From the NCBI GenBank assembly GCA_015501585.1, contig JADNRY010000109.1, positions 124,001 to 188,000 of the forward strand: a stretch of DNA of 64,000 nt. The letters run 5' to 3'. This document shows positions 6,884 to 50,968 of the stretch, in pieces. This DNA comes from Rhodocollybia butyracea. Lineage: Eukaryota > Basidiomycota > Agaricomycetes > Agaricales > Omphalotaceae. The position numbers were made by a program, and so were the translations under genes. The notes below the pieces were generated by a model, which was given only the letters and a program-made list of their open reading frames with translations, had not been told where the DNA came from and made no database searches. Positions within the stretch are counted from its first letter, which is position 1. The number at the start of each line of letters is the position of its first letter.

Positions 6884-8311
6884 CTACATCGTCCTCTTGT
6901 GATTGACCGCCGTCCAACCCAACCCCGACTCCGACTCCGACTTGGATGTCTTCTGCTTCTTGTTTGGTGGCAGCGTGGCAGCCGTCGCAGAATGGTGGGC
7001 AGGTGCGAGAGATCCAGATCCACGTAATCCTCCTTGTTCGTCTTGCACGGGGGCTGCAAGAGGTCCAGGGAGCTTAGGAGCATCATCTGCATCCTTCGTC
7101 CATGTCCAAGCTTTTGTCGGCGTAAAATGATCCAGAAAGTAGACATATTTGTCTCGATGAGTTATAAGGCACTGGCGGTCGTTGGAAGAGGAATAATGAA
7201 CCACGGAGTCTGTCGGATGCTGCGTGACAATTGCACCAAGCATTACCTTCGCACTCGGTTCCTTGGAACAAGCTGTTCCGGCGACATATCCAAAGCATCC
7301 CTTCGCACAGAGGATGCCTTCGACGCCGATGATCTTGAAAGGAAGCATTTCGTTGATCTTGCCCTTGGGATTCATGGAGACCTGCAGCTGTGCGGAATTA
7401 AGTTGTACAGAATCGCTGGCTTTTAATTCCGGCCCCATGGCGGCACGAATGAACCCCACTAGATAGAGCTGCTCGGTTATTGAGACCGACTTTACTGCTT
7501 CACCATCTAGACCGAGCACTGTCACTTCATACTTGTGGACAGCGTCCGCAAGTAACCGCGCCCCAGCGTTCGCAGGCCCAGGCACTGTCTTCCTTTTGGC
7601 ACCCGTCCCAGGTCCCGGCTTCCTTTTAGCACCCGTCGAAGGCCCCGGAGCGTCTAGAGCCGCAGAATAAGGATCCTGAGGAGCCCCAGACTCCTTGGTC
7701 TCTGCCCACTTCCAATCTTCTGTCGGAGTCGACTTGAATTCCCTCAAAAACTTCAAAAACTTGAGATATATGTCATAATGGGTTTTACGTGCGGTTTTGC
7801 GGGCGACAGCGATATGATGAATCACGGACTTCTTGGTCTTGGCGATTATTGCACCAAGTTCCATTTTCTTCGTCGTGTCTTCGGATTTCTCGGAACGAGG
7901 TGTGCTGACGAGATATGCGTAGCATCCATTCTTACAGAACTCGCCCTCGATGAGCTCGAAATAAACCACTTCGAGGACATTATCAATATACCCCTCCGGC
8001 GGCAGGACAACTTTTTGGGGCTTGTACGACATGCTCTTCCCACCTACATCCCCCAATTTCGGCCCCATCTTTTTAATGAAGTTATCAATGCGTCCCGCCA
8101 TGGGTCTTGAGACCGTCTCTCGTGTTTGACCAGCTGCATCAAACACTGTCACTTTATACTCCGTCTGCTTTTGGGAAAGTTAGCAACCGGGATAGAGGCA
8201 ACATGTCATTGTATGTCTTACCACCGGCACTATCAGCATTGGCCCAGCAAACGTGGAGGAAATGAGGACCGCGAGAGGGATGAGACCGAGCCAGTGAAGT
8301 GTTAGGAGCAT
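6884..8311 (-). CDS. secreted two-domain family protein (copy 3)
   Basis: Exons 8311-8222 (30 codons) and 8164-6884 (426 codons), intron 57 nt, phase 0; 456 aa. Exon 1 is the family signal peptide (MLLTLHWLGLIPLAVLI). Domain 1 (about residues 34-190) contains FELIEGEFCKNGCYAYLVST and LGAIIAKTKKSVIHH. Domain 2 (about 245-400) is a diverged copy with GILCAKGCFGYVAGT and LGAIVTQ. The linker (about 190-240) is Pro/Gly rich with two GAKRK dibasic motifs, which could be Kex2-type processing sites. The C-terminus has a basic LPPNKKQKTSK patch followed by GWTAVNHK, an element also seen in the copy at 15367. The frame is fully open and this is one of the best-preserved members. Function unknown. Confidence 0.85.
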
Positions 8312-9378: not shown

Positions 9379-10289
9379 TCATTTACCGCTGTTCAACCTC
9401 TGCTTCTTCCGTGGAGGGCCCTCCAGCTCCGGTGAAGGGGACTTCGAAGGGTACATGGATTTCATCGCAAGTTGAACATAATCGTCCACATTAAATCTGT
9501 TCGCATCAACTTTATCCACATTAACCTCTCTATCCACATCAACTTTATCCACAGATGCGAGAGACTTAGGTCCATGGAATCTTCCTTGTGTGTTTCTCAG
9601 ACGAGGCTTCCGAGTTCCTTGTGTGTTCCTCAGACGAGGCTTCTGAGGAGTCTCCGACGTCGCCCAATCCCAATTTTGGGTCGGCATAATCTTCTTCAAG
9701 AAATTCAAAAATTCGATATATTTGTTGCAATGGATTTGATGGCTTGTGCCTCTTGTGGCACTCGAAGGCACATAATGAACTACGGAGTGCTTGGTCTTGG
9801 CGACGAATGCGCCAAGCCTCATGGTGCTCCTGGTGTCTTTGGAACCCTCATAATGACCTGTGGTGATGAGATATGCGTAGCATCCATCCTGACAGAAGTT
9901 GCCTCCAACGAGCTCGAAATAAACCATTTTCGTGAAGTCATCAAAATACCCCTGTGGTAGTAGGTAGACAACACTTTTCGTTCACCGTCTTGGGTCTGAT
10001 ATACACACTTCATTTGCTTCACCTCATCTCCCAATATTTTCGGTCCCACGTCACGAATGAAGTTGTCAATGCGGTTTCGCATGGGTCCTGGAACCGTCTC
10101 TCGTGGTTGACCATCTGTTGCATTGAGCACTGTCACTTTGTACTCGATCTAGTTTTGGGAAAGTAAGTAACCAGGATAGATGCGTCATGTAGTATGTTTT
10201 ACCGGCGTTGGCGGCGTTGGTGCAGCAAACGTGCAGGAAATGAGTATTGCTAGGGCGATGAAACCCAGCCAGTGATGTATTAGGAGCAT
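9379..10289 (-). pseudogene. secreted family copy 4, frameshifted
   Basis: Exon 1 (10289-10203, 29 codons) is an intact signal peptide (MLLIHHWLGFIALAILI, ending AAPTPPTP). A 54-nt intron leads to exon 2 at 10148. The family domain starts normally, but a net frameshift near 9945-9970 separates the N-terminal half from the rest, which continues in another frame with FELVGGNFCQDGCYAYLITT and ends at 9379. The C-terminal part carries a tandem RLRNTQG repeat, a VDKVD repeat and a basic PPRKKQRLNSGK end. One frameshift within otherwise good coding sequence suggests a recent loss or an assembly error. Function unknown. Confidence 0.75.
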
Positions 10290-15366: not shown

Positions 15367-16775
15367 TTAAGGATCATGGCCAGTCTTCATCTTCTTGTTG
15401 ATCGGCGTCCAACCCGACGGATGTCTCCCGGAATCCGAATCCTCGGCAGCTTTGCCCTTTGGTGAAGAGGGCGCAGCAGCTGTCGCAGGAGCCACAGGAG
15501 CCACAGGAGCTGGAGGGCCCATAGCCGTAGGGCTCCTAGGAGCCCCAGACGCGGTCTCCGCCCAATCCCGACTTTTCATCATCAGGGGTCCCGTCACAAA
15601 GTCGATATATCCGTCATAGTGTGCTTGAATGCATGGGGTTGCCTTGGACTGTTTGGAGGGAATATAATCAATCACGGAGGGATTCGGACTCTCGCGGATA
15701 ATTGCACCAAGCCTTGTGGTTATGGAAGGGTAACAAGCTGTGGAGACGACGTATCCGGAGCATCCCTCCTCACAGAAGGTGTTTTTGGGACTGATGAGAC
15801 GAAACTGGGCCCTTTCCTCGAAATTGTAAGCTGGAGGATTAATGGAGAGCTCGAAGTTCTGATGTTTTATTCGTTCCATCACATCTGACTTCGAACCAGC
15901 TCCCAATTTCGACCACATGTCAAAAATGAACTTATTGATGTGGGTATGTTTGGGTCTCAGGACCTTCTCCTCTTTTTTACCATTTGCATCGAACACTGTC
16001 ACATAAAACATGTTCTCGGGGGCAGCGTCCGCAGCTAACTGCGCCGTATTCCCGGCGTTTGCACGCGAAGGCCCAGATACGGACGCTGCCTTCTTGTGGC
16101 GCTTAGGCTTTGGAGCATCTGCAGAGTGCGGCTCCTGAGACCTCGCCCACTTCCAATTTTCTGTCGACCCCTTGGGCTTGGTTTCCTCCAAAAAGTCCAA
16201 GAACTCGCTATATATGTTATAATGGACTTTGTATGCGGATGCTGGAGCCTTGTCAGGGATATAATGAATCACGGACTTCTCGGGCTTGGACTTTTCGGTC
16301 TTGGCGATAATTGCACCAACCTGCACTGTCTTACTGGGGGAAGTAGGTCTGGTGACGAAATAAGCGTAGCATCCATTTCGACAGAACTCGCCTCCGATGA
16401 CCTCGATAGAAACCCTTTCCGCGACGTCATCAGTGTACTTCTGCGCGGGCTCTCCTTGGGGCTCATACGACAACTTCACTCCAGCTTTCAATTCATCTTT
16501 CAATTGCCCTATCTTCATAAGGAAGGCTCTGATGCGGTTCTCAACGAGTCCTGGGAAGTAATCTGCTTTTTGACGTGTTTTATCATTGAGCAATATCACT
16601 TTAATAACGCTCTGATTTTGAAAAAAAGTTAGCAACCGGGATAGAAGCAACATGTATATCTTACCGAAGCTGGCGTTAGGGGCGCTAGGGGCGCTGGCGG
16701 CGTTGGCGCAGCACACGCGGGGGAAACGAGTACCGCGAAGAGGATGAGACTCAGCCAGTGTGGTGTTATGAGCAT
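15367..16775 (-). CDS. secreted two-domain family protein (copy 5)
   Basis: Exons 16775-16665 (37 codons) and 16611-15367 (414 codons), intron 53 nt, phase 0; 451 aa. Exon 1 is the family signal peptide plus a short Pro/Ala-rich tail (APTPPAPLAPLTPAS). Domain 1 (about 40-205) has IEVIGGEFCRNGCYAYFVTR and GAIIAKTEKS. Domain 2 (about 250-405) has NTFCEEGCSGYVVST and LGAIIRESPN. The linker is very basic (KPKRHKKAA). The C-terminus is an Ala/Pro-rich low-complexity run ending in GWTPINKKMKTGHDP, matching copy 3. The intron happens to be open in one frame, so a naive ORF overruns exon 1; the signal peptide and the conserved splice sites decide the model. Function unknown. Confidence 0.85.
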
Positions 16776-17429
16776 CGAGGGAGATAATCAGATACTGGTG
16801 TGCGAGAGGAGTGTTGGGAAGAAATGCAAGTGACAAAACGAGTCCAGCGGCGTTGGGAAGAGATACTAGTGAACTAGCAGCTGCGAAGGAGGAGCGTTGG
16901 GAAGAACTGAACCAGCAGTTGGGAAGGAGGGTGAGGAAGAAAAGTGAACTGAACCAGCAGCTGGGGAAAATTTTGCTCTTTCGTTTGATTTATATCCAAG
17001 ACGCGCTGGATACATGCGCATATGGTGAGATGGCACAGAAAGATTTCATAGTATTGTCAATTTACGCAACACCTACTAGTTAGACGTTGGTTAACGTTGA
17101 GTACTTTGAGTACTGAGTACTCTGATTAATGGTTACATTAACACAGTCCGCTGGAGAAGGTTCAGGTCAGAGAAGGGTCTATTTCTCCCGCCGCGCGCTA
17201 CTGTCTACCTCTTCGTGCATTGAGCTCGTTGTAGCGCGGCCCTGCGTGGCCGTGTGGGGCCCGGCCGGTTGTTCCCCTGTGGCCTGTGCGGTGTGCATCG
17301 TCCTATGGCGGAGCCGAGTCTAAATCTAGGGAAGACCAGGGAGCCTGCATCGCGCCAGGGTTTGTAGTAGACTGCGATGTAACAAGCGTTGCTGCTTATC
17401 TTCGAAAGCGTCTGCCCAACTCCGGTGAT
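16776..17429. promoter_or_regulatory. divergent promoter region, copy 5
   Basis: The family 5' UTR block is repeated in two to three partial copies (16830-16975). The minus strand then has GATATAAATCAAACG near 16985-17000, the best TATA match among the minus-strand members. The shared upstream block and a GC-rich stretch (17150-17340, matching 20660-20850) follow. Near 17316 the latter has GTCTAAATC where the intact ALDH unit has GTATAAATC. Confidence 0.55.
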
Positions 17430-18943: not shown

Positions 18944-20327
18944 TCAGTGTATCCTTGGCTTCTTCGTCGGAGGAGCGAAATCCTCCACACCCGTATTCAC
19001 AAATCCATCTTCTGGGCCCTCATAATCCTGATGCGAAGGGTCCTCAAGGACTCCCTTAGGAGCCCCAGACGCGGTCTTCGCCCACTTCCAACTTTGCGTC
19101 GGCGGAAACTCCGTCACAAACTTGACATATACGTCGTGATGGGTCTGAAGATATGTTTTCGTTCTGGTACCATAATGAGGGATAGAATGAACCACGGCGT
19201 GATCTGGTCTCTCGCGGATAATTGCACCAATCTTCATTTCGCTGTGGGACTTCTCGGAACATGCTGTGGTGACGACATATCCGAAGCATCCCTCCTCACA
19301 GAAGGTGCCTTTGGGGCTGAAGAGACGAAAAGGAAGCATTTCGTAGATATCGAAAGGCGGAGGTCTGGCCGGAGAGCTCGCGGTGTTGATGTTTTATGTT
19401 CAGCCTCACATCGTCCAGGAGCCAGCTCCCAATTCCGACCACATTTCAGAAATGAACGTATCGATGCGGTTATGCTTGGGTCTTGGGACCTCCTCAAGTT
19501 CTTGACCGTTTTTATCGAACACTGTCACTTTATACGCCTTCTCGGGGGCAACACCGGGTAAATGCGTCGTTTTCTTAGCCTTCGGACGCGAAAGCCCACT
19601 CTTCCTTTTTCCCGCAAGCGAAGGGTCTGGAGCCTTAGGAGGAGCCCCAGACTCCACGGTCCTCGCCCACTTCCAACCTTGTACCGGCTCAAAATTATCC
19701 AAGAACTCGATATATTTGAGATGATGCATTTCACAGCATGCGAGTTGTGAGGAAAGCCGATCAGGCATATAATGAACCACGGAATGCCGGTCTTGGCGAT
19801 AATTGCACCAAGCCTCATGAGGTTATCTGTGGAATGAAGGACGGTAGGGAGTTTATTATTGGCGTCCTTAGAACGACCTGTGGTGACGAGATATGCATAG
19901 CATCCTTTCTTGCAGAAGGTGCCTCCGATGAACTCGAGATAAACCGTTTTCCTGGGGTCATCAGCATACCCCAGCGGCGGGTCAAAGACATCTTGAAGCT
20001 CAGGTTCTTTTTTGGGGTCAAGCGCCGGGAGCTGATATAGATACTTCATACTCTTCGCACCCTCATCTTCCAATTTCGGCCCCATGAGAGTAATGAAGTT
20101 ATTAATGCGTGTCTGCACGGGTCTTGCGACTCTCTCTAGTGGTTTACCATCTGCATAGAGCACTGTCACTCTATACAGGATCTAGTTTTGGGAAAGTTAG
20201 AACTACGATAGATGTGTCACGTGGTATGTCTTACTGACGTTGGCGCTGTTGCCGTTGGCGCAGCAAACGTGGAGGAAATGAGTACCATGAGGGGGATGAA
20301 ACCCAGCCAGTGATGTGCTATGAGCAT
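18944..20327 (-). pseudogene. secreted family copy 6 (two-domain), multiply frameshifted
   Basis: Exon 1 (20327-20235, 31 codons) is an intact signal peptide (MLIAHHWLGFIPLMVLI). Exon 2 starts at 20181 after a 53-nt intron. Domain 1 reads well through IGGTFCKKGCYAYLVTT and LGAIIAKTG, then loses one base near 19782. Its second half (SVVHYMPD to GWKWARTV) continues in another frame. Domain 2 opens in that frame, hits TGA near 19405, and resumes in the frame ending with TFCEEGCFGYVVTT and a basic APPTKKPRIH end. At least three frame changes mark it as a pseudogene. It is the partner of the only intact ALDH. Confidence 0.78.
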
Positions 20328-26318: not shown

Positions 26319-28027
26319 ATGGTTAACGGCTCACAATCACGGTCAGGTGCAGATGATGTACTCGACCTCGAGGCACGAGCAGTCGAAGAAAAACTCATGA
26401 GAGAGGGCGAAAACTTCTTCCAGGTGTTTCCAAAACGTATAGTGCAAATAGCACGCGAGCAGATAGCCCAGTCCACCACTGCACCCTTAAGGAAGAAAGC
26501 TTGGGAGAAAGTGGAGATCATGGGCATGCTCATGCAACAACAGATCTGGAAAAGCAGCGCAGAACACCTAACGAAAGAGTTGGCGAGAAAAATTGCTGCA
26601 CAAGTGGATGAGAAACTAGAACCAGTCACACAGGAGTTGAAGGCAACACGCGAGGCTTTAGGGGTAGCAGTCAAAAAGGTAGAAGGGTTAACAAAAGGAA
26701 CAGAAGATGGCGAAGATGGCGAAATTACTGGCACTGCTTTTCCGCATCTACAGCAATCATATGCTCGGGTTTTGCAAGCCGGAAGTCTTGCCAAGGCAAC
26801 GGCTGAGACGCTGCAACGCCCCAGCATGCTGCTGCCATACATGCAGGAGAAATAGCAGACCGGCGATTCTTCATCAAATCCGAGTCACCTTCGGCTTGGA
26901 CAACACTTTCAGAATCAGTCATTGCCCAGAAAGCCAACCTAGCTTTTGAAAGCATGTTGAAGGAAGAGGGCGAGGATGCAGACACAGTAAAGGTGGTTGC
27001 AGTCACCAAGCTCCGCAGTGGAGGAGCCTTCTGTGTAATGCGAAAGGCTGACGAGCTGGTATGGTTAGAGGACAAAAGCAGACGCGAATGGATTGCCAAA
27101 GCATGGGGTAGTGATGTGACTATTGAGCTCCCTCGACACGATGTGGTGGCTGAATTTGTCCCCTTATCGGTGACGTTGGAGTCTCCATTTACACTGGCAA
27201 GGATTGCAGAGGACAGCGGACTAGGTCCATGTGCCATTTCATCAGCGCGGTGGCTGCGCAAACCAGAGAGGCGAAGCCCTGGTCAAAAAATGGGTTTTGC
27301 GATCTTCTCATTTGACAGCAGACACAACGCGAATAAGGCGATACGGGAGGGACTCACAATTGAAAGTAAGTTCATCAATGCCCGACGAGATGAGAAGGAC
27401 CCCCAACGATGCATGAAATGCCAGCAGTATGGCCACATTGCTCGGGAGTGCGGCTCAACGCGGGACGTTTGCGGGCGCTGTGGCAAGGATCATCCCACCC
27501 AAACCTGCACAGCCAAAGCTGACATATTCTACTGTGCTGTCTGCAAAGCAAAAGGACACATTGCAGCTGACCGTGACTGCCCAACTCTTCTGCAGCAGAT
27601 CCAGAGGCGGGCGCAGCGAGACCCAACTCGCGGATATTGCTTCTATGTCACCGATGACCCTGAAACTTGGGTCCGGCGTGGCGACAAGACGGTGGAGAAC
27701 ATAAACCAGAACTGGAGATTAGAGGTACAAAAGGGGTATGACCAAAACTGGAAAACGGTACAGAGAGGTAAAGGTAAAGGTCGCTTAGCAAGAGGACAGC
27801 CAGGGAACGGCAGCGGAGTACAGTCTCAAGAGCCAGTACGCGGCCGTACACCGGCAAGGCAATCAGCTCCCACAGCCCCAAGACAGGGAACTCTCGATGC
27901 CTACATTTCGCGATCACAGTCCAGGGCGAGGCCCAGCCAGCCAAGTCAACCTAGGAGCAGAGGTGAGTGGGGGAACTCAAGCATGCCACCATGGAATAGA
28001 CAGGCGCTTCCTGGAGGCTCCCAATGA
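26319..28027 (+). pseudogene. LINE ORF1 (gag-like, zinc knuckles), frameshifted
   Basis: The first part (26319 to about 26815) encodes a charged, coiled-coil-like N-terminus that ends early at 26855 in its own frame. From about 26815 another frame is open (QHAAAIHAGEIADRRFF...) and runs to the TGA at 28027, so one indel near 26800-26820 broke the ORF. The second part contains an RNA-binding-like region and cysteine motifs CMKCQQYGHIAREC, CGRCGKDHPTQTC and CAVCKAKGHIAADRDC, that is, three CCHC-type knuckles, then a basic, Gln/Arg/Gly-rich tail. It would bind LINE RNA as the ribonucleoprotein partner of ORF2. Confidence 0.85.
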
Positions 28028-31000
28028 ATAGGGGACCCCAGTCGCCACACACGCAAGACAGGATTACAGTGGCGCAGCTAAACACCAACAAATCCGACAC
28101 CTGCATGCATGACTACCTACACGGGAGTGCCACAAACGCAGACTTCCTGATGATACAGGAACCATACATTGACTTTTTAGGCAGAACACGAGCACTTCCA
28201 CATCTCCACCTAATTTATCCCTCGCAACACCGTGACCTATGGTCCACAATCCCAACCCGGTCCCTCATCATGGTCAATAAACGCCTCCCTACTAACGCCT
28301 GGACAGCTCTCAAAATCAACCACCAAGACATTTCTGCAGTCCAATTAGTTGGACAATTTGGAACTTTGCGCCTCTTTAATATCTATAACGACTGCGAGAA
28401 TAACAGCACAACGGCCGCTTTAGCTCAATGGCTACGCAGTCCTGCAGCACACAACATCCCAAAAACGCCACTACACATGGCTTGGTTTGGCGACTTCAAC
28501 CGACACCACCCCATGTGGGACGAGCCTCGGAATTCCCACCTCTTCACCACTCGAAACCTCGACGCAGCCCACCAGCTTATCACATTACTTGCGGTGCACT
28601 CTATGCGCATGGCCCTCCCAGAGTTTATACCAACCCTGCGTTCCTTTTCAACAGGCAACTACACCAGAGTTGATAACGTGTTCTGTACCAGTGACCTATT
28701 GGGTCATGTTGTACAGTGCAACACCAGCCCAGCCTCTCAGCCAGTTAAAACCGACCACTTTCCAATCCTGACAATTTTTGATTTACAGACAGGCGTTGCG
28801 GACCCACGGAAACGGAGGAACTGGAAAAGAGTCAATTGGGAGGAATTTAGGAAACGCCTCGATGAAAAAGTGAAGGAACTCGACGAACCTAAAGAAATAG
28901 AGCACACACAACAGTTTTGGTCCAAACTCGAGGAGATAGATGGCGTAATTGGAGAGGTCGTGGAAGAGCGGGTCCCACTGTTCAGCCGGCACCCACAACA
29001 ACGTCGGTGGTGGAATACAAACCTCGCAAACATGCGGCGGACCCGGAACAACCTGGGCAACAAATCATATAGGAAACGACTCAATCCTGAACACCCGGTC
29101 CATGAAGAATATCGCCGCATACGCCAAACATTTTCTGCGGAGGTAAAGCGAGCAAAGACAGAGAAGTGGATTGAATACTTGGAACAAGCTACGTCAAGCA
29201 CAATGTGGGACGTTGGTAAGTTAGTGGAAGCGGGGCCTACGGATGGAGGGCATTCCCGGATCCCAGATCTAGTCACCCGAGATTCTAGCGGAACAGAGAG
29301 ACGCGTCAGCGACAATAACAAAAAAGCGGAAGTTTTCAGGACAGCGTTCTTTCCTCCACCACCTACAACTTCGAATGTGCCACCCAATCCAACTTATCCA
29401 CCTCCAGCTTGGCAGTTTCAACTCCCAACCAACCGACTAATCATCAAGCGCATACGGCGCATGAAGAATGGAAAAGCTACCCGCATCGGCACCTTTCCAA
29501 ACGACCTATTCAAGGCCTGTATCGACATCCTTGTCCCATACCTCGGCCCAATATACCGGGCCACATCCTCCCTCCACATTTATCCAGAGGACTGGTCCAC
29601 AACAGAGACCATTGTCTTGAGGAAACCAGGCAAGCCGGATTATCGCCAACCTGGGGCCCATCGTCCAATTACTCTCTCGCATCACCACGGCCGCAACACT
29701 AACAGTTGCACGGTTGACGAGATATCATGCGAGGCTGAAATGCGGAACTTACTGCCAGGAATGCAGTTCGGAGCGAGACCCGGACGGTCAACCACAGACT
29801 CAATTCATCTAATGGTCGATCGAATCAAGCAACTCTGGCGAGAAGGGTACGTAGTTTCTGCTTTGTTCATGGATGTGAAGGGGGCCTTTCCAAGCGTTGA
29901 CCTTGATATGCTCTACCATGAGCTTCGAATGATGGGAGTACCAGTGGAGCTTGTCGAATGGTTGAAGCGACGATATGCTAAGCGCAAAACACGGATAAGT
30001 TTTGACGACTTTGTATCAGATATATTCAACGTACAGGGAGGCGAAGACCAAGGAGATCCATTCTCAGGGTTGGGTTATGTCCTTTACGCGGCTGGGCTAC
30101 TCCGATTATTCAGGAAAGAAAACAGTGAAGAGGGCTTCGGCTTCATGGACGACGTGGCAGCACTGAAATGGGCCAGAACTGTGGAAGACGCACACGATCA
30201 GCTACAGGATCTAATGCACCGTCAAGACGGGATACTCCAGTGGGCACAATCCCATAACTGCTCATTTGGCGTCGACAAATTCCAACTCACCGACTTTACC
30301 CGACGCAGGCGACCCACTCCTGACCCCAAGACCAAACAGAAAACAAGCGTACTAACAGGACCGGGCGTACAGGTAGCAGGCGAGCTGGTGAAGCCAAAGA
30401 ACGCTTCAAGGTTCTTGGGAGCCCTGATGGACAGCGGCTTGAGATGGAAGGAACACCACGCCCTGATGATCAAGAGAGGAACGGAATGGTTAGTACAATT
30501 TCGCCGATTAGCGAAAAGCAAAGGAGGCATGATAGCAAGCCACATACGCCAGCTTTACAAAGCTAAGGCCCTACCGCGAATGCTCTATGCAGCAGACATT
30601 GTGCTAGTCCCTCAGACTCGGAGAAGAGGCAGACAACTAGCTGTGACACGACGTCTTATTTCCATCCAACGCCAAGCGGCGCAACTGATTACAGGAGCAA
30701 TGTCTACAACAGCTACTGACATTTTAGATATCCATGCGGCCCTACTGCCAATGCCGTTAGAGATCGAACGACAGCGACAACGGGCAGCGACAAGACTCAC
30801 CACACTTCCCGACTCTCATCCCCTTGCCAAGCGAGTAGAGAATGCAGCCCGTTACTCCAAACGGACCCGGCATTTCTCTCCCCTTCATGACCTAATGGGA
30901 TCCTACGGGTTGAAACCAAAGGTAATGGAGAAACGGAAGGCTGTCCGATACGAGGCAAACTGGGATCCTGGGCTAATTGTTCACATTTGCGAAGATGAAA

Positions 31001-31991
31001 ACGAGGCACTGAAGATGGTGGATGAGGACAGAGCAGATGTACAAGTCTTTACAGACGGTTCAGGATACAAAAACCATGTCGGGGCATCTGCCGTGCTTTT
31101 CAGAGAAGGCGAAGAGATAGCGGCCGTGAGATACAGGCTGGGGCACGAAGACGATCACGAAGTATACGAAGGAGAGCTGATTGGATGGTCATGGGATTGC
31201 ACTTGGCGTCACGGGAACAAGCTATTCGGGAGCTGTCAATATGGGCCGATAATACCGCCGCGATCACGGCGGCTGATACGTCCTCCACCAATTCTTCCCA
31301 CTACATCCTTGACATCTTCCACTCTTTACTCACTCGCCTACGCGCCATCTTTCCGGATATTCGCATAAAGATCTCCTGGGTTCCGAGCCATAAAGGTGTA
31401 GAAGGAAACGAGAGAGCAGATCAGGAGGCGAAAAGAGCAGCAGCTGGCAGATCCAGCAATAGAAGGCTATTACCGGAGGAACTACATCGTCGATTACCCC
31501 GCAGTCGCACCGCCGCTGTCCGCGTCTACCGCCGCAAGGTCGAGAAACAACACGACGATTTGTGGAAGAAGTCCCCCCGTTATACAAAATTCAAGGAAAT
31601 TGACCCAGCGCCAGCCACGAAAGCCAGCCGGAACTACTGGAAGCTATCTCGCCATCTACCTCGGAAACTTCTCACCATCCTCACTCAACTTCGTACCGGG
31701 CATATCCCTCTGCAGAAACATCTCCACCGCATAAAACGAGCAGACTCACCTACATGTCCATGTTGCCGCCGGCACCCCGAAACGGTATTCCACTATATCT
31801 TCCAGTGCTCAGCGCATCGCGAGGCAAGGCACCGCCTACGACAGATTGTCAGCAGGAAGCACTGGAATATGCGCTCTCTCCTCACATCACCCAAACTCTT
31901 ACGGCATCTTTTTCTATATGTTGACGAAACCAAGCGCTTCCACCACATCCTCGGGGACCTACCGGAGTTGCCAGAAGAGGAAGACGGGTAG
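28024..31991 (+). pseudogene. LINE ORF2: endonuclease, reverse transcriptase, RNase H; frameshifted
   Basis: The ATG overlaps the ORF1 stop (ATGA), suggesting coupled translation. N-terminal endonuclease motifs: MIQEPYID, AWFGDFNRHHPMWD and KTDHFPI. RT motifs: MDVKGAFPSVD, GGEDQGDPFS and GFMDDVA (FMDD at the catalytic site). In the sequence between HRPIT and MRNLLPGMQFGARPGRSTTD the expected residues lie in another frame for about 55 nt, pointing to a compensating indel pair near 29680 and 29735. RNase H begins VFTDGSGYKNHVGAS; after YEGELIG a one-base loss near 31184 shifts the frame, and ADNTAAI plus WVPSHKGVEGNERAD follow in the 31185-31991 frame. The C-terminal finger is CPCCRRHPETVFHYIFQC. 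Confidence 0.9.
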
Positions 31992-34248: not shown

Positions 34249-35052
34249 TCACAAACTAGGCAAGGCACAGTTAAGAGCACCGTTCTGGCATCTAATACAC
34301 AGAAGGAACAAAAAAGTCAGTGTTGTTCCAAGATAACGCATCGAGGAACTCACGCCCAAGATCCCGAGTTGTAGCAGCAAAGATCACCCGAAGAGCCTGG
34401 AATAAAGGTTATTATATACTATCAGGATTTTGCGATAATGGTACTCACACTAGATTGGTAGAAAGATGAGGTAAATTGAGATGACTGAGGACATCCAAAT
34501 GAAAGTTACCAAGACTCACACTGGTATCGCCCTCTCCAGCACCTATTCATACAGCGTAAGTGTTCATACTTGTTTCATATTGGACTACATGTTGACTTAC
34601 AGGGAGTTGGAAGGGCACAGAGAAGCCCAGCACCTTGGCATCTGGTACAAAACACCAAAGTCAGCGACTCCGATCGCATATATGTTCATCATAATAATGA
34701 TTCATCGTAATACTCACTCCCAGGCCCCCGTGTTATAGCAGCAAAGCTGGTCCGAATAGCCTAAAGATTAGGTTAGCCTTGTGCTCTGGTATAGTATCCG
34801 CACAAATGGTACTCACACTAATGATATGCATAACGCGGAGCAGTCAGTAGTTATACATACACAACTATAAAACCATCCTCACGCTATGGGAGTCGTTTTC
34901 TCCTTTGCCTAGTAATCGTCAATCATAAATATCTCATCGTGTCTCATATTGGTTCAAAGAGACTTACAGGCAGTAGCGCTAACGCTCGCGACCGTGAAAG
35001 TGCTGAGCAACAATGCAGAGAATACAGTGGAGAGAGTGAGTTTCGAAAACAT
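34249..35052 (-). CDS. secreted 101-aa protein with two six-cysteine (knottin-like) repeats; two 1-nt exons
   Basis: Nine exons: 35052-34968, 34908-34883, 34817 (1 nt), 34760-34718, 34641-34601, 34542-34520, 34449 (1 nt), 34396-34354, 34291-34249. They total 306 nt. Exon 1 is a signal peptide (MFSKLTLSTVFSALLLSTF, cleavage near SATA). The mature protein is two repeats with spacing C-x8-C-x5-CC-x7-C-x6-C and C-x7-C-x5-CC-x7-C-x6-C; shared residues are LCCYN-[TS]-G-[AS]-W and CALP. The CC pattern resembles inhibitor cystine knots, but the fold is inferred. Both 1-nt exons supply the first base of a Cys codon (T|GC). Without them the second repeat hits a stop and the cysteine pattern is lost. 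Introns are 50-76 nt with GTRAG donors. The exon set was duplicated inside the gene. Function unknown. Confidence 0.8.
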
Positions 35053-41590: not shown

Positions 41591-43873
41591 TCAAGTAGCC
41601 GAAGTCCCTTCACCTGCAGGAACAACAAGAGTAGGGCTGAGGTGGGCCTGCGGGAAGCGCTTGGTGAGGACCTGCATGATGAAGGAGATGGGAGTGACAT
41701 AAGTCACGTCGGCGGACTCAGTGGCACCAGAGCCACTAGTGAGGATCCCAGCAACACGTCCGAAAATATCAGCAACGCAAGACCCAGAGTCCCCTTTAGC
41801 CGAGAATGCGCCTGATTCCTGATTGGTTGCAATCACTGGCCACTCCTTCGACTCCCTGTACTGGCCAGCAAGGCAAGTACGGGTGAAAGACGAAACGTTG
41901 TTGGCTTTGCCAAACGTCATACCAGTCTTCCCGCCGTTCTTGAAAACGATAAAGCATGGTTTGCTGTCAGCATCACGCATTGGCGGATTGAACAGAGCGT
42001 CCTCAGGGACCTGGTCTTCAAGCTTCACGAGACGGTTGCCAGGTATTTTGAAGGAAGGGGAGCTGGAAGAATGCAGATGGACCTTTTGGGCGAGTTCTAG
42101 AGGAGTATATTTCTTCCCAAGGTTTACAGTATTGCCCAAAAAGTTTTCGGCGTCGAGCATACCCGGGTCGATCTTGATGACGGCGAGATCTAGAGTGTAG
42201 CGACCGGGTTCGGTGGAGGGAATGATGGGAGGAGCCCAGACAAGTTCCCCAAATACACGATTCTCTGCCCCCTCCCAGTGAGTGGCGATGTCCTTCAGCA
42301 AGAGGTTGAGTTGCTCCAACTCCGTCTTTGCCATCTGCAAATTTTTCTCTTCCAATATGCGTGCTTCCACCCACACAAAGTCATTCTTGTCCTTCATTAA
42401 CCGAATCCGGTCCTGAATATCTTTGATCACGAACTCTTTTTCTTTAATCTCTCTGTCAAAGGCGGCGAGATTCTCATCGAACGAGGTGGTCCCATGGATC
42501 ACCACTCGTAGTTTGTTGTCATCCGGTTGCTCGTATTCCTCGTTATCGTCCTGACCGAGGGGGAGGACAACGTGTCGAGCCGTAACAAGGTAGATGTTAC
42601 TGTCGTTGCCGCCAGCACTGAAATAGAATCCTCCTGTTCCCTCATCCCAGAGCCTATCTTTAGTGGAGATTGGGCTGCCAAGGGTCGCAGTGTATGGGCT
42701 GCGGATAGTGAAAGTCGCATGATTGAAGTGGACAAGATTGAGGAACTTATTGCCTATCTGTCTCATAACACGAGACTCCCTAATCTCTACACGGCAGTCT
42801 TCGATATGCCATTGACCAATGATGCCTTGGAGGATCCTGTGTGCGACATTACTGCCTTCTTCATAGCTGAGTGCCCCGAACTCGACACCGATCCAGACAG
42901 TTGCCAGACCAGAGGACTCGTCTCCGACTTTGGCAATAGTGAGGGCATCCAGACTTGTCCAATTTACATGCATCGTGTTTAGGCCCTCGCAAATACTGGT
43001 TGCTAGACCCTTGTCCCAAACACTAGCAAGAGAATGGTCACCTAAGGCCCTTATCTCTTTGAGTACAGCGCTATGACCAGAATCTGGCCACCACCTATCC
43101 TCCCAGCCCCATTGGTCCTCCATCTGGCCACCGGATGGAGGATCTATAGTGCTAGGATGAGTGGTAGCAATCAGGCATGGGTTAGAAGGCAAGCCTTTGT
43201 AATAGCTCTCAGAAATATCATCGATTACTACGAACGGGGTAAGTTCCATCGTAGGAGATTTGGAGGTGACAGGATTAGGGAGGTTATTGCCTGTCTGTCT
43301 CATAACACGGGACTCCCTAATCTCTACGCGGCAGTCTGGGATGTGCCATTGATCAACGATGTATTTGAGGATGCTGTGTGCGACGTTACTGCCTTCTTCA
43401 TAGCTGAGCGCCCCAGACTCGACGCCAATCCAAACAGTGGCCGGGCCAGAGGACTCTTCTCCGACTTTGGCGATAGTGAGGGCCTCCAAACTTGTCCAGT
43501 TTACACCTATCATGTTTAGGTCCAGGCTAATGCCGACCGCTAGACCGTTGTCCCAAACACTAATAAGAGGGTGGTCACGTAAGACCCTGATCTCTTTAAG
43601 GACAGAGGAGGCCGCAAGGTCAGATGGAGGCTCGGCAGGGCTGGGATGAGTGGAAGCAACAAGGCGTGGGCTGGAAGGCAAGCCCTTGTAATAGTTTTTA
43701 GACATATTGTCGGTAACGACAAACGGGGTATGTTCCATCGTAAGAGGGTTGGTAAGAGATGCAGGGTCGCTCGGGGTTCCATCACCAGCACCAACGGCGT
43801 CAGTTTGAGAGCGAGGGGATTGTAGGTCGGGCTGGTCCTTGCTAAAGACTATGGGAAGCTGGGAGAGGTCCAC
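41591..43873 (-). CDS. trypsin-like serine protease with two N-terminal repeats
   Basis: A single exon of 760 codons. The N-terminal region holds two near-identical repeats of about 150 aa (residues 46-196 and 209-377), sharing ME[HL]TPFVV, YYKGLPS, NWTSL[ED]ALTIAKVG, ATVWIGVE and WHI[PE]DCRVEIRESRVMRQ. The C-terminal domain (about 395-750) has a chymotrypsin-fold triad: His433 in VTARHVV, Asp562 in LDLAVIKID and Ser696 in AKGDSGSCV. A coiled-coil-like Glu/Lys/Leu-rich insertion lies between the His and the Asp. No signal peptide, so an intracellular protease is likely. Activity is inferred from the intact triad; the role of the repeats is unknown. Confidence 0.8.
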   Translation of the reverse strand: MDLSQLPIVFSKDQPDLQSPRSQTDAVGAGDGTPSDPASLTNPLTMEHTPFVVTDNMSKNYYKGLPSSPRLVASTHPSPAEPPSDLAASSVLKEIRVLRDHPLISVWDNGLAVGISLDLNMIGVNWTSLEALTIAKVGEESSGPATVWIGVESGALSYEEGSNVAHSILKYIVDQWHIPDCRVEIRESRVMRQTGNNLPNPVTSKSPTMELTPFVVIDDISESYYKGLPSNPCLIATTHPSTIDPPSGGQMEDQWGWEDRWWPDSGHSAVLKEIRALGDHSLASVWDKGLATSICEGLNTMHVNWTSLDALTIAKVGDESSGLATVWIGVEFGALSYEEGSNVAHRILQGIIGQWHIEDCRVEIRESRVMRQIGNKFLNLVHFNHATFTIRSPYTATLGSPISTKDRLWDEGTGGFYFSAGGNDSNIYLVTARHVVLPLGQDDNEEYEQPDDNKLRVVIHGTTSFDENLAAFDREIKEKEFVIKDIQDRIRLMKDKNDFVWVEARILEEKNLQMAKTELEQLNLLLKDIATHWEGAENRVFGELVWAPPIIPSTEPGRYTLDLAVIKIDPGMLDAENFLGNTVNLGKKYTPLELAQKVHLHSSSSPSFKIPGNRLVKLEDQVPEDALFNPPMRDADSKPCFIVFKNGGKTGMTFGKANNVSSFTRTCLAGQYRESKEWPVIATNQESGAFSAKGDSGSCVADIFGRVAGILTSGSGATESADVTYVTPISFIMQVLTKRFPQAHLSPTLVVPAGEGTSAT

Positions 43874-45164
43874 TGAAAAAAAGGGGTAAACAAATGTTGG
43901 TACAGAAAAGCAGTGAAAAAAGAACGAAAAAGAAACGCACTGGCTATAGATATTCTGTCACAGAAGAGTCTTCAGGAGAGCGATATGAGAGAGCAGAGTC
44001 AAGACATATTGCTTCCGCTTCCCGGGCCGACGTGAAAAATCAAATCTCGAAGCGTGTTGAGAAAACGGATGCTGGGAAAGGATGCGGGGACGATGCGGGA
44101 TTGGATTTTCCAAGCGCCGAGGCAAGATTTCAGAATATACTGGGAAGGTGCGTCACCTAACCTTTCCTCCCTCTTTCCAATGGTTAGATATCGTAGATCC
44201 TCATCCAACGCGCTCTGATAATCGGGAACGATAGCTCTTCCGACGACATAACTTCCCACCTCACACCACTGGCCTCAGTCGCTGTATATTGCAGCATCCG
44301 TCGTCTGAATAAGCTTTTATGCATTTCGTCAGTCTTCCTAATCCGCGAATTCATTCGTGACGACAACGGGAGCTAAAAGACGGTACAAAATCGAGGATAT
44401 CGATATCGTTTTTTGTTGGTCCGGAATACATACCGATTCCCAGTTTCATTCATCGCGACACAACACCTTCCAGCTCCGATATCCTATGACGCAAGCTCGA
44501 AGCCCCCAACCGCGTTGTATCTGCCCCCTGCATAAACACATGCTATACGCGTATAACCCTACCTTTGTTCAGTCATGTCCCTTCACTATCGCAGACGTCC
44601 AGTACCTGGCTTACCCTCGCATGGTCTAATCGAGTCCAATTCCCTCCTTCTCCCGAGACATGGCTGCAGTTTGAAAAAGAGTGTATACAGAGCATTGAAT
44701 GACGGGTCGTGAGGCCTTGAGGTTTTGTCTTTGTACACCACGCTGGAGACTAGTGAGGAAGATTATCCTGCTGGTTTAAAAGAAGCGATAGTCGCCGCTA
44801 AGCTGGAATGGCGGTCTTTGTTGTGACGGAAGAAGCAGAAGATGAGTTGGAGAGGTAGAAGGGTGCCGGTGAATGGTGATAGTCGTTCATAATTGACTCG
44901 TGTATCAGGCCGATGTTATTGGGGTCAAGAAATGTATATGCTTGTCTAATGATTCAACACACAATTAGGTACTTGGTAGAAAAGGTATTTTGTGCCACGC
45001 CAGTACAGTTGAGTTTCTGTCGCTGAATAGTATCTGGAATTTGCCCATGAGTTGAACACAATAACGGCCGGAAACGTAAGATAAATGGATAATAAATGGA
45101 TATCGGGCTCTAGAGCTCTAGAGTTATAGCAGACCAGCGAGGAAGGACAAGAGAGTCATGAAGG

Positions 45165-50013: not shown

Positions 50014-50968
50014 ATGCTCCTAACACAAACGCACCACTGGCTGGGTTTTGTCCTCCTCGCGGTGCTCATTTTCCCAGCGTGTGCTGCGCCAATGCAGGTA
50101 AGTACAGGACACATCTATCCAACTGGTTACTAACTTTCCCAAAACTAGAGTACTGTAGAGCATTCAGCGACCGTGGTAAGAGATACATGATGCATCTATT
50201 CTGGTTACTGACTTTCCCAATTCCCAAAACTAGGGACAATCCATTACTGCCGAGCATTCAGCGACCGGGTTAAGACATGCTGTCTATAAGGTGACAGCGG
50301 TCGACGAAAAGGGCAACGATGTATTAAAGGTCTCAAAAGGAGCGCTCGTCCGCATTGAGGGTTTAATTTATGCCTTGGGGGAGCAATTGGGAGATGATGA
50401 AAGTAGGGAAGGGAAGGTAATAATACACCACAGCGTGGAGGATGCCGAGCTACCAGAACTCGACAAGTACAAACTGTCTCTTTTCAAGCTGAGCGGGGGC
50501 AAATTCTGTGATGGTGATCACGCTGCCGCACCATGCTATGGATTTGTCGTCACCCTCTCGAAAGGAAGTCAAGCGACGACTGGTGCAATTATTACCCAGA
50601 AATCCCCGGAAACCCACCGTCGATATGCCGAAGTCGTTAAACCCTTGACTGATACCCAGAGCTCCGGGAAGATTAACGGCCCGAAATGCTGGGACAACTG
50701 GCTTCGCGAGTTCTTGACGGAGCTTAAGCCGATAATGGAATGGGTGAAGGCAATGGCTCTATACAAGGACCCTGGGCCTTCCAAGATTGTAGAAGAGGCT
50801 GCAAAGTTTAACGCTGAAAAGGCTGTGAATAAAGCTTTATATGCAGAGGTTGCCAAAAAGGCTGCGGCCAAGGCTCAAACGCGTCTCCCATACATCACAA
50901 ACCCGCCAGTACACTCGTTAAATTCAAAGTTTCGTCACAACAAGCCGCCCCTTCATGCGATTCCATAA
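50014..50968 (+). CDS. secreted one-domain family protein (copy 8)
   Basis: Exons 50014-50097, 50149-50175 (27 nt) and 50234-50968; 281 aa. Exon 1 is the signal peptide (MLLTQTHHWLGFVLLAVLIF, ending ACAAPMQ); exon 2 encodes STVEHSATV. Exon 3 starts GQSITAEHSATGLRHAVYKV. Its first part repeats the small-exon motif EHSAT, and the following GGTTAAGACATG looks like a former GGTAAG donor spoiled by one inserted T, so a lost intron position is now read as coding. The family domain carries GGKFCDGDHAAAPCYGFVVT, with a longer loop between the two cysteines than elsewhere, and an Ala/Lys-rich tail. Open throughout. Function unknown. Confidence 0.83.

Follow-up and report, generated by a model that had tools for sequence, protein, structure and literature searches.

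Can a gene whose reading frame depends on two exons of a single nucleotide each be intact, or is its frame better accounted for by more conventional splicing? The question is raised by positions 34249 to 35052 of a 64,000-nt stretch of DNA (called the window throughout) taken from contig JADNRY010000109.1 (positions 124,001 to 188,000) of the Rhodocollybia butyracea assembly GCA_015501585.1, which comprises 95.6 Mb in 1381 contigs. R. butyracea is an agaric of the Omphalotaceae and is described as a forest-litter decomposer (PMC8480192). The locus, referred to here as the window gene (C102), runs from 35052 to 34249 on the minus strand and is very probably an intact gene whose product is a small secreted protein with two six-cysteine repeats, in which the codon of the second cysteine of each repeat (Cys2) needs a one-nucleotide exon. 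Its nine exons measure 85, 26, 1, 43, 41, 23, 1, 43 and 43 nt, and its main features are as follows.

34968 to 35052, minus strand: exon 1, 85 nt, with the start codon, the signal peptide and the first base of the codon of the first cysteine (Cys1)
34883 to 34908, minus strand: exon 2, 26 nt, repeat 1; the same boundaries yield the public model P0001
34818 to 34882, minus strand: intron 5' of the first one-nucleotide exon, 65 nt, GTGAGG..TTAG, with CTGAC 25 nt from its end
34817, minus strand: one-nucleotide exon T, first base of the Cys2 codon of repeat 1, conserved in 8/8 repeats
34761 to 34816, minus strand: intron 3' of the first one-nucleotide exon, 56 nt, GTGAGT..TTAG, with CTAAC 11 nt from its end
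34718 to 34760, minus strand: exon 4, 43 nt, LCCYNTGAW of repeat 1
34601 to 34641, minus strand: exon 5, 41 nt, the end of repeat 1 and the first base of Cys1 of repeat 2
34520 to 34542, minus strand: exon 6, 23 nt, start of repeat 2
34450 to 34519, minus strand: intron 5' of the second one-nucleotide exon, 70 nt, YTRAY branch motif not found
34449, minus strand: one-nucleotide exon T, first base of the Cys2 codon of repeat 2, conserved in 8/8 repeats
34397 to 34448, minus strand: intron 3' of the second one-nucleotide exon, 52 nt, with CTGAT 24 nt from its end
34354 to 34396, minus strand: exon 8, 43 nt, LCCYNSGSW of repeat 2
34249 to 34291, minus strand: exon 9, 43 nt, including the stop codon

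Every splice site of this gene is GT-AG, and the joined exons come to 306 nt and translate into 101 aa, with a cysteine spacing of C-x8-C-x5-CC-x7-C-x6-C in repeat 1 and C-x7-C-x5-CC-x7-C-x6-C in repeat 2. The signal peptide was called by eye from the hydrophobic N-terminus. When the Ts at 34817 and 34449 are left out, the frame is lost from exon 4 onwards and a stop is reached in exon 8, as the initial annotation had anticipated for the second half of the gene. The coordinates, intron lengths, splice sites, both Ts, the 26-nt and 43-nt exons and the 306-nt total are likewise all as first claimed, and the signal-peptide-like start and the two six-cysteine repeats with matching spacing were reproduced in the spliced protein. 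Branch sites had been claimed for all four introns next to a T; two of them hold the CTGAC or CTAAC described, one has CTGAT instead, and the intron 34519-34450 offers weak candidates only. A further claim, that substitutions between the two 43-nt exons fall mostly at third positions, is also weaker than put forward, as the counts at codon positions 1, 2 and 3 are 3, 3 and 5 (5/11 at the third).

To look for conventional splicing of the same DNA, we listed every exon chain that the window gene allows when donors fit the consensus, acceptors are YAG and introns measure 45-130 nt. If each exon must be 3 nt or longer, no chain under these settings reaches the terminal stop in frame; with one-nucleotide exons permitted, 14 in-frame chains do, one of which has both repeats. 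A second enumeration covered the window gene and four sister genes of the same genome described below (C494A, C494B, C235 and C610) and added AAG acceptors. Here, exons of at least 3 nt gave 4, 6, 10, 0 and 0 chains to the stop (C102, C494A, C494B, C235 and C610, in that order), with no full-repeat chain in any of the five genes, and a minimum exon of 1 nt gave 1, 1, 1, 1 and 2 full-repeat chains, every one of which has one one-nucleotide exon per repeat.

Alternatives closer to each T were also considered. Shifting the edges of a single intron yields 119 in-frame possibilities over the 8 sites examined in the five genes, and in 24 the donor is consensus-like; not one of the 119 keeps the spacing C-x6-9-C-x4-6-CC, and some merely lose Cys2 or insert residues. 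For instance, an acceptor 14 nt into exon 4 of the window gene removes CYSDQ from repeat 1; repeat 2 of the same gene lacks an equivalent with a donor of this kind, its other alternatives losing Cys2, and C610 repeat 2 has a similar one. Mini-exons other than the T were sought with GT donors and with both introns at least 35 nt long, and at 5/8 sites the T is the sole option. At the others, 34- and 40-nt mini-exons are possible in C102 repeat 2, a one-nucleotide C exon that loses the cysteine is possible in C494A, and C494B could accommodate a one-nucleotide C, a 7-nt exon or a second one-nucleotide T, which has the weaker donor GTAACC and would result in the same protein; none of these is common to all 8 sites.

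The sister genes were sought by protein and DNA searches of the assembly, and each model was assembled manually, its splice sites being marked. At least five genes were found, gene counts being lower bounds, and together they hold 8 six-cysteine repeats: the window gene, the double-repeat genes C235 and C610, and C494A and C494B, a tandem pair on C494 with one repeat each. An allele of the window gene lies on C565 and differs by 5 SNPs in 804 bases, leaving the protein unchanged. In 8/8 repeats of the five genes the sequence reads TAG-T-GTRAGT (acceptor, exon, donor), followed by a 43-nt exon, and the introns flanking the T span 52-101 nt across the repeats. The six cysteines are invariant across all 8 repeats in the frame that includes the T. 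Because the repeats share descent, they are not 8 independent cases. The three double-repeat genes have the 41-nt linking exon in common, and in all three the reading that skips the T stops at the identical place in repeat 2.

By eye, no comparable gene was found at loci L011, L014 and L015, nor by pattern scan at L028, with L016 and L017 left out; the weak-match contigs behind these loci are C930, C511, C665, C472, C482 and C939. In the two C494 genes (L018 and L019) we also observed TAG-C-GTGAGT nine bases past the T, a second, overlapping candidate one-nucleotide exon, and this C, if used instead of the T, would place Arg where Cys stands.

We then compared identity outward from the T in an ungapped alignment of 5 divergent rows, C494B and the two C610 rows having been set aside because they are near-copies. 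Mean identity is 1.0 over TAG and 0.93 over GTRAGT and falls to 0.58 over positions +7 to +11. In the remaining intron stretches compared, it is 0.32 upstream (-30 to -6) and 0.31 downstream (+12 to +30). The exon base itself is T in all 8 rows. T is not the usual base at donor or acceptor edges, and splice-site consensus therefore does not account for its conservation. Counted over both strands, the window contains 4 instances of the motif YAG-N-GTRAGT, versus 0-5 in 20 mononucleotide shuffles, so that the motif alone is not rare and the evidence lies in its occurrence at the same place in 8/8 repeats. A YTRAY branch motif is missing in 5/16 of the T-adjacent introns.

Selection was assessed in the pair C235 and C610, which differ at 23 of 291 exon positions and at 65 of 528 intron positions, with 18 gap columns in addition. 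In the frame that includes the T, dN is 0.056 and dS is 0.195 over the coding sequence (no significance test). After the first T there are 1 synonymous and 5 non-synonymous differences in the T frame versus 3 and 3 in the frame without it, and this stretch, taken alone, does not favour the T frame. After the second T the corresponding counts are 5 and 4 versus 1 and 8, and this stretch favours the T frame. Pooled over 10 pairs of 43-nt exons, substitutions number 40, 29 and 49 by codon position, a mild third-position excess.

Protein searches to an E-value of 10 retrieved 23 homologous proteins from Rhodocollybia, Gymnopus, Collybiopsis, Mycena and Roridomyces. Judged by eye, the place of Cys2 is occupied by Cys in 15 of the 23, which makes Cys the family state; it is Gly in three (P0002, P0003 and the Gymnopus protein P0004), and the frame is lost in five (P0001, P0005, P0020, P0022 and P0023). 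The Omphalotaceae models P0012 and P0015 have Cys at this place, at the protein level only. Conservation of the one-nucleotide exon is seen within R. butyracea, and is indicated indirectly elsewhere by the Gymnopus protein models. One of these, P0023 of Gymnopus androsaceus, is suggestive of a skipped one-nucleotide exon and would be compatible with one, since CCxN[TS]GxW can be matched in it once the frame is shifted as in P0001 and P0005, a match that 46/5000 shuffles also give; P0023 is itself a weak match (E 2.8). Like P0023, the Mycena models P0020 and P0022 lose the frame at Cys2 or close to it; for these two, the shifted motif LCC[GA][STK] was matched by 276 and 325 of 3000 shuffled controls.

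The public models of the R. butyracea genes could be compared directly with the DNA. P0001 (BDP27DRAFT_436531) is, letter for letter, the T-skipped reading of C102/C565, a frame-shifted protein of 76 aa, and P0005 (BDP27DRAFT_1412817) is, likewise letter for letter, the T-skipped reading of C494A; both skip the T with canonical introns. P0002 differs from the spliced C235 protein only in having Gly in place of Cys at residues 36 and 72, and P0003 from the spliced C494B protein only by the same change at residue 45, in each case at the T codons. No AG-G-G[TC] one-nucleotide exon was found between the exons concerned in the P0002 and P0003 genes. Instead, a G is present one base past either splice edge, and its use makes the intron non-canonical, these two sources of a G being the ones examined. 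An extra base drawn from a non-canonical edge is what one would predict of transcripts that are one base longer than the joined exons: a program bound to GT-AG would not pick such an edge, and the alignment of a transcript with one unexplained base could. The paper that presumably describes this genome states that its annotation was improved with RNA-seq (PMC8480192). The glycines of P0002 and P0003 count as indirect evidence that transcripts contain one extra base.

These models also bear on the rival explanations. P0001 and P0005, as exact T-skipped readings, could be real transcripts, in which case the introns 34882-34761 and 34519-34397 would be removed whole and the product would be the frame-shifted 76-aa protein, or the gene would be decaying. 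The initial annotation had named a single longer intron without the T as the observation that would tell against it, and such an intron is indeed present in P0001, yet within a protein model that is frame-shifted and has lost five of the six repeat 1 cysteines and all of repeat 2. Skipping would also leave no evident reason for TAG-T-GTRAGT to persist in 8/8 repeats while nearby intron sequence diverges, the public models of two sister genes hold one extra base instead, and dN is below dS in the C235/C610 pair; we regard it as very unlikely. Gly stands at this place in P0002, P0003 and P0004, public models that come from two genera, so one might alternatively take the non-canonical junctions (TA/TG..AG or GT..TA/CA) as real, with the added G replacing Cys2 by Gly. 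This would require a non-canonical intron at each site that can be read in the DNA (Gymnopus not included) and would leave an odd number of cysteines per repeat, against the Cys found in 15/23 homologues. The glycines are better explained by an aligner forced to place one extra base at an exon edge, and we give the Gly reading scarcely any credence.

A third possibility is that both forms are made in a regulated ratio, with inclusion of the T acting as an on-switch and the skipped message being frame-shifted and probably degraded. The sister genes do show both kinds of public model, in each of the three double-repeat genes the skipped form reaches its stop at one shared point of repeat 2, and plant VPS55 is described as having isoforms with and without its one-nucleotide exon (PMC8831610). 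Differences between public models may, on the other hand, reflect model-building only; with the aligner STAR, reads spanning an unannotated one-nucleotide exon are reportedly mis-mapped (PMC8831610). We consider such regulation improbable, though a good deal less so than the two rivals above, and it adds to the reading in which the T is included rather than excluding it. That reading, with the frame dependent on two one-nucleotide exons as the initial annotation proposed, is supported by the chain enumeration, by conservation among the sister genes and by the one-base trace in the public models.

If the T is indeed retained, the Cys2 codon of each repeat would be put together from the T of the one-nucleotide exon plus the GC that opens the following 43-nt exon, and the short flanking introns (52-70 nt in the window gene) would most likely be excised in succession by standard GT-AG splicing. 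Since the TAG acceptor and the GTGAGT donor lie one base apart, they can hardly both be occupied together and are probably used in turn. Whichever intron were to leave first, the splice sites of the other would still be intact, and with the T kept the reading frame would be restored. Fungal introns are short and are recognised across the intron, so a minimum exon size is not expected in these organisms. The arrangement would most simply have arisen once, in an ancestral repeat, and have been copied by internal and gene duplication; the 41-nt linking exon of the three double-repeat genes suggests that the internal duplication predates their split and copied an existing one-nucleotide exon. Inclusion of the T in vivo, the order of splicing and the single origin are what we infer from these comparisons. 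A broader scenario, leaning somewhat to the doubtful side, has the one-nucleotide exon fixed before the Omphalotaceae genera split, spread through a secreted-protein family by internal and gene duplication, and serving as a shared, possibly regulated gate for production of the protein. If true, public models that systematically change Cys to Gly or lose the frame would provide a signature by which one-nucleotide exons still unrecognised in fungi could be searched for.

As to the protein itself, the repeats follow the consensus CxGxxDTSCPSGDLCCFNTGAWxCQxxxLxCxV, with one extra residue before Cys2 in some copies, and the product is predicted to be secreted and disulfide-bonded. Pfam searches assigned no relevant family to two full proteins. 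The WAP family (PF00095) gave weak matches in 5/8 repeats (best E 0.0086) and in 2/16 homologues (best E 0.0054), and was not among the matches to the two full proteins at E up to 1. Hydrophobins have an eight-cysteine pattern; the repeats have six cysteines each, no such Pfam family was found in the two full proteins, 8 repeats and 16 homologues, and partial PDB sequence matches to hydrophobins reached E 1.4 and 1.8 only. PDB sequence-profile searches returned nothing better than E 0.24. AlphaFold2 models of the homologues P0015 and P0011 are of low confidence (mean pLDDT 59 and 67) and place a hairpin across the second half of the repeat; Foldseek and VIA-align gave no reliable structural match to them. 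Our guess, a modest one, is that the present protein is a disulfide-stabilised extracellular mini-protein. Hevein- and knottin-like mini-proteins have a six-cysteine, CC-containing disulfide core with a beta hairpin. The UniRef names carried by P0002, P0004, P0016 and P0018 (Lipoprotein, CBM1 domain-containing and Hydrophobin, the last on two Mycena homologues) met with no support; precomputed Pfam annotation is empty for all four, and our own scan, which covered P0004 and P0016, listed no hydrophobin family.

Elsewhere in the window, a LINE-like element occupies 26807-31991 (+), in which one ORF bears motifs that by eye look like zinc knuckles, Pfam recognises endonuclease and reverse transcriptase domains in the ORF after it, and a further frame resembles RNase H (by eye). 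FCxxGCYAYLV-like motifs are common to the ORFs at 6884-8179 (-), 9379-9981 (-), 15367-16989 (-), 19525-20181 (-) and 50234-50968 (+), which by eye look like a local gene family; the only one tested, 6884-8179 (-), had no Pfam match. The long ORF at 41591-43957 (-) gave below-cut-off matches to the trypsin-like peptidase families PF08192 and PF13365.

A one-nucleotide exon is the lower limit of what the spliceosome can keep, and eight copies in one genome suggest that such an exon can pass to descendants, undergo duplication and persist even as its introns diverge. The gene family offers a natural replicate set for testing how splice sites are read, and it illustrates a concrete, detectable way for automatic annotation to corrupt small secreted proteins. 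Judged from the DNA, the T is a putative single-nucleotide exon of the class described for APC11, VPS55 and CYP621A, with AG and GT flanks, a frame that needs it and conservation within the genome. In Arabidopsis APC11, where the exon was demonstrated with cDNA and mutated reporter genes, a single base likewise lies between AG and GT, the frame needs it and annotation had missed it; in contrast to our genes, APC11 is a plant single-copy cell-cycle gene with one such exon, and the portions of the report consulted describe no internal duplication (PMC4674806). Plant VPS55 resembles the R. butyracea genes in its conserved one-nucleotide exon, its conserved GTRAGT donor and the absence of the exon from reference annotations, and differs in that some lineages also make a form without the exon and in that the portions of the source consulted describe no internal duplication (PMC8831610). 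A fungal parallel is Fusarium CYP621A, in which a one-nucleotide exon supported by SRA reads, and called by its authors the first for a fungal gene, completes one codon of a conserved motif; this is an ascomycete P450 with one such exon per gene, whose base is G, a splice-consensus base (PMC12940212). In our case, the base is T; three genes have two such exons each, and the five genes of this one basidiomycete together hold 8.

Stwintrons (spliceosomal twin introns) are similar in being described as neighbouring or nested introns removed in consecutive reactions. In a stwintron, the internal intron interrupts a splice signal of the external intron and nothing of the unit is retained; in the present genes a single base has to remain between the two introns, and removing everything between the exons destroys the frame and the repeats. 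Among the literature sources consulted, some of them available in part, nuclear one-nucleotide exons were found only in plants (APC11 and VPS55) and in Fusarium CYP621A, further mentions being possible, and the placozoan cox1 case is described as mitochondrial. Within the literature searched, the R. butyracea genes appear to be the first example from a basidiomycete; they also appear to be the first in which one-nucleotide exons occur twice per gene and are spread through a gene family.
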